Part shown: positions 46,338 to 52,300 of the stretch, one piece after another
Layout of the letters: each line of letters starts with the position of its first letter
Position numbering within the stretch: position 1 is the first letter of the stretch
Origin: Salvelinus alpinus
Lineage: Eukaryota > Chordata > Actinopteri > Salmoniformes > Salmonidae
Assembly: GCF_045679555.1 (NCBI RefSeq)
Contig: NC_092093.1
Span: forward strand, 63,570,390 to 63,634,389
Length of the DNA: 64,000 bases
Direction: 5' to 3'
Program-made: the position numbers and the translations under genes
Notes under the pieces: generated by a model
Database searches by the model: none
Told to the model about the DNA's origin: nothing
What the model saw: only the letters and a program-made list of their open reading frames with translations

Positions 46338-49300
46338 TTAGTCAGACCAGTCGTTCTCCTCCAACTCGGAGTCGTCCTCGGAGTCGGAGTACTCAACGGC
46401 GATGCGTCTGGACAGGATGGTGGCCACGTCGTTCCCTACAGGCTCCCTCTTAGCCTGCTGCTCCTGCTGCTCCTGACCCTTCTTCAACTGGATACCTACA
46501 GCCAGGGAGAGAGACAGTTAGATACACTTCAACTAGATACCTACAGCCAGGGAGAGAGACAGTTAGATACACTTCAACTAGATACCTACAGCCAGGGAGA
46601 GAGACAGTTAGACACACTTCAACTAGATACCTACAGCCAGGGAGAGAGACAGTTAGATACACTTCAACTAGATACCTACAGCCAGGGAGAGAGACAGTTA
46701 GATACACTTCAACTAGATACCTACAGCCAGGGAGAGAGACAGTTAGATACACTTCAACTAGATACCTACAGCCAGGGAGAGAGACAGTTAGACACACTTC
46801 AACTAGATACCTACAGCCAGGGAGAGAGACAGTTAGATACACTTCAACTAGATACCTACAGCCAGGGAGAGAGACAGTTAGATACACTTCAACTAGATAC
46901 CTACAGCCAGGGAGAGAGACAGTTAGACACACTTCAACTAGATACCTACAGCCAGGGAGAGAGACAGTTAGATACACTTCAACTAGATACCTACAGCCAG
47001 GGAGAGAGACAGTTAGATACACTTCAACTAGATACCTACAGCCAGGGAGAGAGACAGTTAGATACACTTCAACTAGATACCTACAGCCAGGGAGAGAGAC
47101 AGTTAGACACACTTCAACTAGATACCTACAGCCAGGGAGAGAGACAGTTAGACACACTTCAACTAGATACCTACAGCCAGGGAGAGAGACAGTTAGATAC
47201 ACTTCAACTGGATACCTACAGCCAGGGAGAGAGACAGTTAGATACACTTCAACTAGATACCTACAGCCAGGGAGAGAGACAGTTAGACACACTTCAACTA
47301 GATACCTACAGCCAGGGAGAGAGACAGTTAGATACACTTCAACTAGATACCTACAGCCAGGGAGAGAGACAGTTAGATACACTTCAACTAGATACCTACA
47401 GCCAGGGAGAGAGACAGTTAGACACACTTCAACTAGATACCTACAGCCAGGGAGAGAGACAGTTAGATACACTTCAACTGGATACCTACAGCCAGGGAGA
47501 GAGACAGTTAGATACACTTCAACTAGATACCTACAGCCAGGGAGAGAGACAGTTAGATACACTTCAACTAGATACCTACAGCCAGGGAGAGAGACAGTTA
47601 GACACACTTCAACTAGATACCTACAGCCAGGGAGAGAGACAGTTAGATACACTTCAACTAGATACCTACAGCCAGGGAGAGAGACAGTTAGATACACTTC
47701 AACTAGATACCTACAGCCAGGGAGAGAGACAGTTAGACACACTTCAACTAGATACCTACAGCCAGGGAGAGAGACAGTTAGATACACTTCAACTAGATAC
47801 CTACAGCCAGGGAGAGAGACAGTTAGACACACTTCAACTAGATACCTACAGCCAGGGAGAGAGACAGTTAGATACACTTCAACTAGATACCTACAGCCAG
47901 GGAGAGAGACAGTTAGATACACTTCAACTAGATACCTACAGCCAGGGAGAGAGACAGTTAGACACACTTCAACTAGATACCTACAGCCAGGGAGAGAGAC
48001 AGTTAGATACACTTCAACTAGATACCTACAGCCAGGGAGAGAGACAGTTAGACACACTTCAACTGGATACCTACAGCCAGGGAGAGAGACAGTTAGATAC
48101 ACTTCAACTAGATACCTACAGCCAGGGAGAGAGACAGTTAGACACACTTCAACTAGATACCTACAGCCAGGGAGAGAGACAGTTAGACACACTTCAACTA
48201 GATACCTACAGCCAGGGAGAGAGACAGTTAGACACACTTCAACTAGATACCTACAGCCAGGGAGAGAGACAGTTAGACACACTTCAACTAGATACCTACA
48301 GCCAGGGAGAGAGACAGTTAGACACACTTCAACTAGATACCTACAGCCAGGGAGAGAGACAGTTAGACACACTTCAACTAGATACCTACAGCCAGGGAGA
48401 GAGACAGTTAGATACACTTCAACTAGATACCTACAGCCAGGGAGAGAGACAGTTAGATACACTTCAACTAGATACCTACAGCCAGGGAGAGAGACAGTTA
48501 GACACACTTCAACTAGATACCTACAGCCAGGGAGAGAGACAGTTAGACACACTTCAACTAGATACCTACAGCCAGGGAGAGAGACAGTTAGACACACTTC
48601 AACTAGATACCTACAGCCAGGGAGAGAGACAGTTAGACACACTTCAACTAGATACCTACAGCCAGGGAGAGAGACAGTTAGATACACTTCAACTAGATAC
48701 CTACAGCCAGGGAGAGAGACAGTTAGATACACTTCAACTAGATACCTACAGCCAGGGAGAGAGACAGTTAGATACACTTCAACTAGATACCTACAGCCAG
48801 GGAGAGAGACAGTTAGACACACTTCAACTAGATACCTACAGCCAGGGAGAGAGACAGTTAGATACACTTCAACTGGATACCTACAGCCAGGGAGAGAGAC
48901 AGTTAGATACACTTCAACTAGATACCTACAGCCAGGGAGAGAGACAGTTAGATACACTTCAACTAGATACCTACAGCCAGGGAGAGAGACAGTTAGATAC
49001 ACTTCAACTAGATACCTACAGCCAGGGAGAGAGACAGTTAGACACACTTCAACTAGATACCTACAGCCAGGGAGAGAGACAGTTAGACACACTTCAACTA
49101 GATACCTACAGCCAGGGAGAGAGACAGTTAGACACACTTCAACTAGATACCTACAGCCAGGGAGAGAGACAGTTAGACACACTTCAACTAGATACCTACA
49201 GCCAGGGAGAGAGACAGTTAGACACACTTCAACTAGATACCTACAGCCAGGGAGAGAGACAGTTAGACACACTTCAACTAGATACCTACAGCCAGGGAGA

Positions 49301-52300
49301 GAGACAGTTAGATACACTTCAACTAGATACCTACAGCCAGGGAGAGAGACAGTTAGATACACTTCAACTAGATACCTACAGCCAGGGAGAGAGACAGTTA
49401 GACACACTTCAACTAGATACCTACAGCCAGGGAGAGAGACAGTTAGACACACTTCAACTAGATACCTACAGCCAGGGAGAGAGACAGTTAGACACACTTC
49501 AACTAGATACCTACAGCCAGGGAGAGAGACAGTTAGACACACTTCAACTGGATACCTACAGCCAGGGAGAGAGACAGTTAGACACACTTCAACTAGATAC
49601 CTACAGCCAGGGAGAGAGACAGTTAGACACACTTCAACTAGATACCTACAGCCAGGGAGAGAGACAGTTAGATACACTTCAACTAGATACCTACAGCCAG
49701 GGAGAGAGACAGTTAGATACACTTCAACTAGATACCTACAGCCAGGGAGAGAGACAGTTAGACACACTTCAACTAGATACCTACAGCCAGGGAGAGAGAC
49801 AGTTAGATACACTTCAACTAGATACCTACAGCCAGGGAGAGAGACAGTTAGATACACTTCAACTAGATACCTACAGCCAGGGAGAGAGACAGTTAGATAC
49901 ACTTCAACTAGATACCTACAGCCAGGGAGAGAGACAGTTAGACACACTTCAACTAGATACCTACAGCCAGGGAGAGAGACAGTTAGATACACTTCAACTG
50001 GATACCTACAGCCAGGGAGAGAGACAGTTAGATACACTTCAACTAGATACCTACAGCCAGGGAGAGAGACAGTTAGATACACTTCAACTAGATACCTACA
50101 GCCAGGGAGAGAGACAGTTAGATACACTTCAACTAGATACCTACAGCCAGGGAGAGAGACAGTTAGATACACTTCAACTAGATACCTACAGCCAGGGAGA
50201 GAGACAGTTAGATACACTTCAACTAGATACCTACAGCCAGGGAGAGAGACAGTTAGACACACTTCAACTAGATACCTACAGCCAGGGAGAGAGACAGTTA
50301 GACACACTTCAACTAGATACCTACAGCCAGGGAGAGAGACAGTTAGATACACTTCAACTAGATACCTACAGCCAGGGAGAGAGACAGTTAGATACACTTT
50401 AACTAGATACCTACAGCCAGGGAGAGAGACAGTTAGATACACTTCAACTAGATACCTACAGCCAGGGAGAGAGACAGTTAGACACACTTCAACTAGATAC
50501 CTACAGCCAGGGAGAGAGACAGTTAGACACACTTCAACTAGATACCTACAGCCAGGGAGAGAGACAGTTAGATACACTTCAACTAGATACCTACAGCCAG
50601 GGAGAGAGACAGTTAGACACACTTCAACTAGATACCTACAGCCAGGGAGAGAGACAGTTAGACACACTTCAACTGGATACCTACAGCCAGGGAGAGAGAC
50701 AGTTAGATACACTTCAACTAGATACCTACAGCCAGGGAGAGAGACAGTTAGACACACTTCAACTAGATACCTACAGCCAGGGAGAGAGACAGTTAGATAC
50801 ACTTCAACTAGATACCTACAGCCAGGGAGAGAGACAGTTAGACACACTTCAACTAGATACCTACAGCCAGGGAGAGAGACAGTTAGACACACTTCAACTG
50901 GATACCTACAGCCAGGGAGAGAGACAGTTAGATACACTTCAACTAGATACCTACAGCCAGGGAGAGAGACAGTTAGACACACTTCAACTAGATACCTACA
51001 GCCAGGGAGAGAGACAGTTAGATACACTTCAACTAGATACCTACAGCCAGGGAGAGAGACAGTTAGACACACTTCAACTAGATACCTACAGCCAGGGAGA
51101 GAGACAGTTAGATACACTTCAACTAGATACCTACAGCCAGGGAGAGAGACAGTTAGATACACTTTAACTAGATACCTACAGCCAGGGAGAGAGACAGTTA
51201 GATACACTTCAACTAGATACCTACAGCCAGGGAGAGAGACAGTTAGACACACTTCAACTAGATACCTACAGCCAGGGAGAGAGACAGTTAGACACACTTC
51301 AACTAGATACCTACAGCCAGGGAGAGAGACAGTTAGATACACTTCAACTAGATACCTACAGCCAGGGAGAGAGACAGTTAGACACACTTCAACTAGATAC
51401 CTACAGCCAGGGAGAGAGACAGTTAGACACACTTCAACTGGATACCTACAGCCAGGGAGAGAGACAGTTAGATACACTTCAACTAGATACCTACAGCCAG
51501 GGAGAGAGACAGTTAGACACACTTCAACTAGATACCTACAGCCAGGGAGAGAGACAGTTAGATACACTTCAACTAGATACCTACAGCCAGGGAGAGAGAC
51601 AGTTAGACACACTTCAACTAGATACCTACAGCCAGGGAGAGAGACAGTTAGACACACTTCAACTGGATACCTACAGCCAGGGAGAGAGACAGTTAGATAC
51701 ACTTCAACTAGATACCTACAGCCAGGGAGAGAGACAGTTAGACACACTTCAACTAGATACCTACAGCCAGGGAGAGAGACAGTTAGATACACTTCAACTA
51801 GATACCTACAGCCAGGGAGAGAGACAGTTAGATACACTTCAACTAGATACCTACAGCCAGGGAGAGAGACAGTTAGATACACTTCAACTAGATACCTACA
51901 GCCAGGGAGAGAGACAGTTAGTCAGTCAGTAAGCCAGTCAGTCAGTCAGAAAAGGCACGGCCCGGGGCCCCGGGTGAGCTCAGTTTGCTAATTTTAGGCC
52001 ATTCCATTGGTCCAAAAGGGAAATATCCACCCACCCAGGGCACCAGGCGATGCAAAACGTACCAGTCCAGTCCAGACCAGTCCAGACTAGACCAGACCAG
52101 ACAGACAGACAGAATACCCCTGCCACAGAGACACAGAGGATTAGATGGAGATACACACTCTTACCCATGCGTATGGCAGCCAGCAGATCACTACGAGCAT
52201 CATTAACAGGCTGGGCAATGTGGGGCACGGAGGACATCTTGGGAGTGGTAGAGTAGGAGGAGCCTGGAGGAGGGGGCGGAGGTATAGGGGGAGGTGGAGC

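Follow-up and report, generated by a model that had tools for sequence, protein, structure and literature searches.

How is the proper last exon of a gene joined when the 3′ splice site in front of it has been copied more than a hundred times? The question is raised by wasf3b of the salmonid Salvelinus alpinus, a minus-strand gene in a 64,000-nucleotide (nt) stretch of contig NC_092093.1 (assembly GCF_045679555.1, positions 63,570,390 to 63,634,389; hereafter the window, whose positions are counted from its first letter). An initial annotation, made from the sequence alone, had described about 120 tandem copies of the terminal acceptor filling the last intron, with the real site closing the series. 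Both statements were confirmed: the array is made of 120 exact 45-bp units, free of insertions and deletions, and the real acceptor is its 121st and terminal member.

The gene has 8 coding exons, running from 63381 to 46338, for a product of 474 amino acids (aa). Its best database matches were salmonid wasf3b proteins, such as isoform X1 of Oncorhynchus keta (98% identity, 91% query coverage), and WAVE1 was the nearest among solved structures. Homology to WAVE proteins extended over the full length, including WH2 and the acidic C-terminus, as it should for WASF3 (WAVE3); the Pfam WH2 match of the full-length protein scored 21.7 bits, below the cut-off of 23.1. WH2 is split between two exons. 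Exon 7 (52165..52463, minus strand) carries the polyproline region and the first half of the domain, and its donor, TGG/GTAAGA, opens onto the array; the last coding exon (46338..46495, minus strand) brings the C-terminal half, the central and acidic region and the stop codon. The intron between them (52164-46496) is 5,669 nt long, and the acceptor array (46482..51921, minus strand) fills 96% of it.

On the minus strand, GGCTGTAGGTATC occurs 121 times, all 120 spacings being exactly 45 nt, and Tandem Repeats Finder (TRF) reported a period of 45, 120.9 copies, 98% matches and 0% indels. The first exon base stands at 51895 for the first decoy and at 46495 for the real acceptor, whose AG is at 46497-46496. 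Each unit is composed of 31 intronic and 14 exonic nt, so that the end of the intron and the start of the exon both lie inside it. It contains CTAAC and then a pyrimidine tract, followed by TAG and the opening nucleotides of the last exon. The acceptor's final G stands 22 nt after the last A of CTAAC, with no further AG between the two. TAG/GTATC is kept in 121 of 121 acceptors. All 120 decoys match the real site over at least 26 nt upstream, and downstream over 5 nt (110 units) or the whole shared stretch of 14 nt (10 units). We thus have tandem near-identical copies with the splice signals kept and the authentic copy at the exon body, which is a boundary-spanning minisatellite, and the copies in this array and in the donor array of the same gene, described below, extend away from the exon body into the intron.

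Just five unit sequences, A to E, were found among the 120 decoys (58, 50, 6, 4 and 2 copies respectively). These differ at three variable sites, which suggests that the long form of the array is young. One block of 17 units occurs twice, exactly, a length that 0 of 1000 shuffles reached, and this points to growth by multi-unit duplication; beyond that block there was no excess of higher-order periodicity (369 of 1000 shuffles reached the best lag). An open frame of 1,810 aa runs through the array, as expected from a unit whose 45 nt are a multiple of 3 and in which one frame is free of stops. A search for proteins encoded by the two open array frames gave no database candidate.

The consequences of using a decoy can be read from the units. 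Joining exon 7 to a decoy is predicted to give AIRMGI-stop in 110 of the 120 cases, GIQLKCV-stop in 6 and GIQLKCI-stop in 4, and the full C-terminus is predicted from acceptor 121 alone. The stop common to the 110 is created by a C to T change at exon position +6, which also makes a UAG. The initial annotation had been right on these points: it gave Gly-Ile-stop for the common tctag form, a stop a few codons later for the tccag form (10 of 120 units), and a product cut inside WH2 that lacks the full tail. Translation agrees, and the weak Pfam WH2 match disappears from the truncated form.

What, then, distinguishes the real acceptor? Splice-site strength, expressed in bits, was computed with position weight matrices built on general splice-site frequencies. 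The real acceptor scored 5.9, as did the four decoys that were scored, and the seven acceptors of the gene ranged from 4.2 to 7.5. Because the decoys share the core of the real site, correct choice must draw on sequence past +5 to +14, or on adjacency to the exon. Beyond the shared stretch, the real last exon continues with AAGGGTCAGGAGCAGCAGGAGCAGCAGG, in our reading a purine-rich, enhancer-like stretch. We also considered whether RNA structure hides the decoys, and rejected it: the last 251 nt of the array with the exon are less structured than shuffled sequences (z +3.44, with 200 of 200 shuffles folding at least as well). Three salmonid wasf3b records, all three of those aligned, join AIRMG to IQLKKGQEQ, which is the true junction; these are database proteins, from loci that may or may not carry the array.

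Terminal exons are defined by exonic enhancers together with the poly(A) end, and Reed and Maniatis reportedly found in 1986 that, among duplicated splice sites, the exon-proximal one is chosen. We propose that a segment made up of the final 31 nt of intron 7 and the 14 nt that open the last exon would have been duplicated in tandem, and that multi-unit duplications would then have expanded the copies to 120 decoys here (C8) and to 3 in a duplicate gene described below. Terminal-exon definition would pick the exon-adjacent acceptor, and decoys would be ignored in the normal mRNA, since the last acceptor alone adjoins a real exon body. The array would accordingly be a "mirage", as such repeats are called in amphioxus: mainly a passive, length-unstable filler of the intron, causing at most low-level mis-splicing. 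We give this a probability of roughly three in four. It starts from what was observed, namely the anatomy and duplication pattern of the array, the duplicate gene, the identical core sites and the normal junction in three database proteins. From these we infer exon definition as the discriminator, low use of decoys and instability of length between individuals.

The last exon of wasf3b gave 11 matches in the genome, of which the nearest, C10:18997514 (92%), is probably the copy left by the salmonid whole-genome duplication. This duplicate carries the 45-bp acceptor array as well, in its last intron, 3 decoys preceding the real site (L031:1347-1514 and L041 on C10). An array reaching into the exon was found in 2 of the 11 matches, those of C8 and C10; in the other 9, TRF detected none (period at least 10, 2.5 copies). 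In two of the latter (L036 and L038) a short pyrimidine repeat of low copy number lies immediately beyond the exon match, and the match of a third (L040) covers part of the exon. The two duplicates of the gene thus have 121 and 4 acceptors, a comparison between loci and not between individuals. Since the same array is present on C10, the array is not an assembly artefact, although its length may be inexact; nor is it a chance product.

The decoy units are strikingly alike in the two copies. The three internal C10 units correspond to C8 unit types over 135 of 135 nt, including an A/G variant, and T is found at +6 in 3 of 3 C10 decoys. Four alignable intron stretches, one of which includes a TG repeat, are 69, 69, 79 and 79% identical between C8 and C10 (gaps not counted), and a poorly aligned piece of the 3′ untranslated region 58%. 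The windows around six other acceptors differ in 2, 3, 5, 6, 13 and 16 columns, and that of the array junction in 0; in exon 8 the first difference does not come before +35. Either the array predates the split of the two copies or it was exchanged between them. Exchange and constraint both fit the identity of the units, and we lean towards exchange.

Several of these observations weigh against a passive array. Because the protein records have been clustered at 90% and most are predictions, they could conceal a minor truncated isoform; the three proteins with the true junction come, as said, from loci that may or may not carry the array. Furthermore, and most weightily, decoy units are identical between C8 and C10 where other intron sequence is 69-79% identical, and a passive repeat should diverge. 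Finally, a repeat in human ABCA7 shows that such arrays can change splicing (PMC5954066). It is therefore worth asking whether the array sites are used at a real rate, yielding WASF3b cut inside WH2, with copy number tuning active against inactive protein. The decoys do bear the core acceptor of the real site, the predicted stops hold, and a stop inside a terminal exon need not lead to removal of the transcript by junction-dependent nonsense-mediated decay. Opposed to this are the true junction in all three aligned records and the fact that, if all 121 equal sites were chosen without bias, hardly any normal protein would come from this locus. Precedents point both ways. In the report on ABCA7, skipping of exon 19 rises with the length of a variable number tandem repeat (VNTR), whereas retention of a single unit, at 2 +/− 1%, is independent of it (PMC5954066), and the amphioxus mirages are reported to be silent (PMC3087553, PMC3902484). 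Appreciable use of the decoys thus appears unlikely to us. The initial annotation's view of the units as potential competing acceptors stands as far as core sequence goes, but no decoy use was seen in database proteins. Its further proposal, that copy number tunes the ratio of active to truncated WAVE3, is unsupported: three salmonid records have the true junction, splicing in amphioxus is reported as undisturbed, and in ABCA7 use of the donor in the next repeat stays constant over repeat length, even if exon 19 skipping does not.

The similarity of the duplicates could also mean that the decoy unit is itself under selection, for instance as an array binding splicing regulators, its sequence being held constant in both genes. 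CUCUCU is a motif for PTB and UAG one for hnRNP A1. The identity of the three internal C10 units to C8 types, down to the +6 C-to-T and the A/G variant, stands beside 21-31% divergence in other intron sequence and differences of 2-16 columns in the six other junction windows. Gene conversion between the loci, however, accounts for the same identity, exon identity for 34 nt past the junction fits a conversion tract, and a copy number of 4 against 121 speaks against a dose requirement; we consider such selection improbable. A bolder version would see in the array a splice filter, selected and dependent on copy number, in which mis-joined products would be rare and truncated and array length would set the amount of functional wasf3b mRNA. 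It would draw on the +6 C-to-T of 110 of 120 C8 and 3 of 3 C10 decoys, whose UAG could attract a repressor, for example hnRNP A1, and on unit identity across duplicates, and seems to us distinctly improbable.

Two further explanations have very little to recommend them. If TAG/GTATCT acted as a joined 3′ and 5′ site, the intron could be removed by recursive, zero-length-exon splicing in 45-nt steps, and AG and GT are indeed juxtaposed in 121 of 121 sites. The in-array donor nevertheless scored 0.1 bits, and the donor that joining of exon 7 would regenerate scored −2.1, where the real donor of exon 7 has 3.2 and the consensus 8.7; the candidate was rejected on the low score of the regenerated donor. 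The test is a weak one, as real wasf3b donors range from −3.5 to 6.7 bits (with the same frequencies) and two of them score as low, at 0.1 and −3.5, the second being below the regenerated site. Recursive splicing is in our opinion scarcely credible. Much the same can be said of the array, or its length, being an assembly error: 5.4 kb of near-identical units are hard to size, and one assembly was examined, but the unit and junction recur on C10, and five unit types in non-periodic order with one long block duplication are unlike a looped consensus.

The preferred reading, a passive mirage, gains from a second boundary array in the same gene. Exon 5 (54142..54323, minus strand, translation ending EGSLSPEM) ends with GAGATGAG/GTCAGT, and a 39-bp donor array (53458..54150, minus strand) begins there, its unit carrying the final 8 exonic nt. 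It holds 17 GTCAGT donors, of which the real one, GAG/GTCAGT, is the first, with its last exon base at 54142; here again the exon-edge copy is the authentic one. The 16 decoy donors extend down to 53498 (15 with GAG, 1 with AAG), and the 39-nt spacing is interrupted once, from 53947 to 53888, by an unrelated insert containing CATTTAGCAGACGCTCTTATCCAGAGCG. Each of the first five decoys would contribute 13 aa in frame; the remaining 11 meet a stop at codon 324. Used as a query, the 13-aa insert found a single protein, an Octopus one, among 1,563 candidates, and the idea that the repeat is made as protein was dropped. The same intron of the C10 duplicate is without a 39-bp donor array. By eye, exon 5 on C10 ends with GAGATGAG/GCCAGT, that is GC and not GT, and ATGAG/GTCAAT, 45 nt downstream, would keep the frame; this pair of donors looks like a seed state of the donor array.

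A third array, of 60-bp units, occupies intron 3 (54764..56356, minus strand) and begins 30 nt past the end of exon 3. Its unit has the acceptor-like motifs CTAAC and TACTACCCAG, but is not a copy of any wasf3b exon junction, and of its 26 copies of TACTACCCAG only 3 scored above 5 bits. The initial annotation had suggested seeding of a minisatellite by the splice acceptor. In these short introns (254-334 bp once the array is collapsed), a random seed would overlap a junction 26-30% of the time, so that a special mechanism of seeding by splice sites need not be invoked. The presence of two boundary arrays in one gene was likewise rejected as proof of targeted seeding, at least two of three intron arrays being expected to cover a junction by chance with P 0.19.

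The other coding exons, all on the minus strand and placed by sequence and translation, are the first (63249..63381, starting MPLVKRN), exon 2 (58391..58525), exon 3 (56387..56540), exon 4 (54402..54519) and exon 6 (52997..53242). Right at the stop codon starts a CA/GT dinucleotide repeat of 120 nt (46219-46338), which is short in the C10 duplicate.

Are such arrays peculiar to wasf3b? Tandem arrays of at least 300 bp make up 21% of the 274 kb around and including the window (57,460 bp, 36 arrays). Most are not acceptor-like, an acceptor-like motif being present on either strand in the units of 6 of the 36. Of the 31 arrays that lie beyond the window, 5 were picked for their splice-like or long units and had their flanks inspected, and 2 of these 5 proved to be boundary arrays of a gene, probably flt1, about 145-180 kb away. 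The first, of 36 bp (C8:63434100-63435017, L016), has 25 acceptors CCCAG/GTAAAG and ends at a coding exon starting at C8:63435012. The second, of 20 bp (C8:63471865-63472858, L020), begins at an exon ending at C8:63471869 and has 42 donors, 20 CAG/GTAAGA and 22 CAG/GTAACA. The probable identity of the gene comes from a kinase exon nearby, which matched VEGFR1 best (E 1.4e-12), and from our reading of the exons; that of the 36-bp array gave no significant structure match (best E 0.85), and that of the 20-bp array matched sidekick-1 best (E 0.0018), with VEGFR2 at E 0.06. As we read them, the exon-edge copy fits an open exon in both arrays. The reading frame seems, by eye, disrupted just upstream of the 20-bp donor array. 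When 41 arrays of the same 274 kb were screened automatically for junction arrays, 0 candidates emerged; the thresholds exceeded the wasf3b scores, the screen also missed both flt1 arrays, and it was abandoned.

At the scale of the genome, three copies of CAGGTAAG at short spacing were counted 9,757 times, against 3,496 for the backwards pattern, and three copies of TCTCCAGG 14,955 times, against 4,537. Tandem triples of these two 8-mers, one donor-like and one acceptor-like, are thus about 3 times commoner than the backwards patterns, in counts of overlapping windows, not arrays, made without reference to exons and with listings filled in large part by big single arrays. They may hint at an excess of splice-like tandem repeats. 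In the window itself, a pyrimidine-rich array of 25-27-bp units on the plus strand (4320-6148) ends upstream of a PDZ-like exon, at a distance of about 60 nt, and does not take in the junction; we read this exon as lnx2-like.

The wasf3b gene offers within one gene a natural version of the classic duplicated splice-site experiment at two junctions, with 121 acceptors of identical core and 17 GTCAGT donors. The information that singles out the right acceptor must lie on the exon side, and wild alleles differing in length would therefore test exon definition without engineering. Boundary arrays may moreover be common in salmonids, with consequences for annotation and read mapping and for hidden variation in splicing. 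A regulatory effect on wasf3b is possible, if unsupported by the present analysis; the lasting value of the locus would be in this natural test and in the sign that salmonid boundary arrays may be widespread.

The initial annotation had held that a minisatellite keeping a splice acceptor in every unit was not a described class. Such repeats have in fact been published. In amphioxus, "mirages" are minisatellite-like tandem duplications of an intron-exon boundary, reported in the globin genes BflGb6 and BflGb9 and in Adh3, TnC and PGBD5; they involve 5′ or 3′ boundaries and many AG or GT copies, and regular splicing is said to be undisturbed (PMC3087553, PMC3902484). Units there measure 10-160 bp, two BflGb6 haplotypes have 6 and 3 of them, and the globin paper suggests that the copies could be used as cryptic sites and give rise to new introns (PMC3087553). 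Compared with what is reported of these, wasf3b is a vertebrate gene with a 45-bp unit, 121 acceptors and a second, donor array, and the PGBD5 repeats are imperfect. In human ABCA7, the intron 18 VNTR has a 25-bp unit with the exon 18 donor, the real donor coming first, and about 12 to 427 copies (PMC5954066); polymorphism and the splicing effects cited above were measured there on a donor repeat, whereas the wasf3b array is one of acceptors, known here from sequence. A 1995 paper is devoted, by its title, to a minisatellite with multiple splice donor sites in an interferon-induced transcript. The 39-bp array of wasf3b and the 20-bp array of probable flt1 match the ABCA7 VNTR, as reported, more closely than the acceptor array does. 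The interferon-induced transcript, which we take to be IFI6 (6-16), again has donors repeated, to judge by that title, and wasf3b acceptors. Variable repeats at exon-intron boundaries are also known from human genes in segmental duplications, where they are sometimes said to form new introns; they average 30-bp units repeated 4 times and are not described, in the relevant part of that paper, as arrays of complete acceptors (PMC2812944). Recursive splice sites, or ratchet points, resemble the wasf3b units in joining a pyrimidine tract, AG and GT, but the regenerated donor of wasf3b scores very low. Among the open-licence papers listed in our searches there was no acceptor array this large and no salmonid case. 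The wasf3b array belongs to an already described, if little-known, class of repeats, of which it is a large example.

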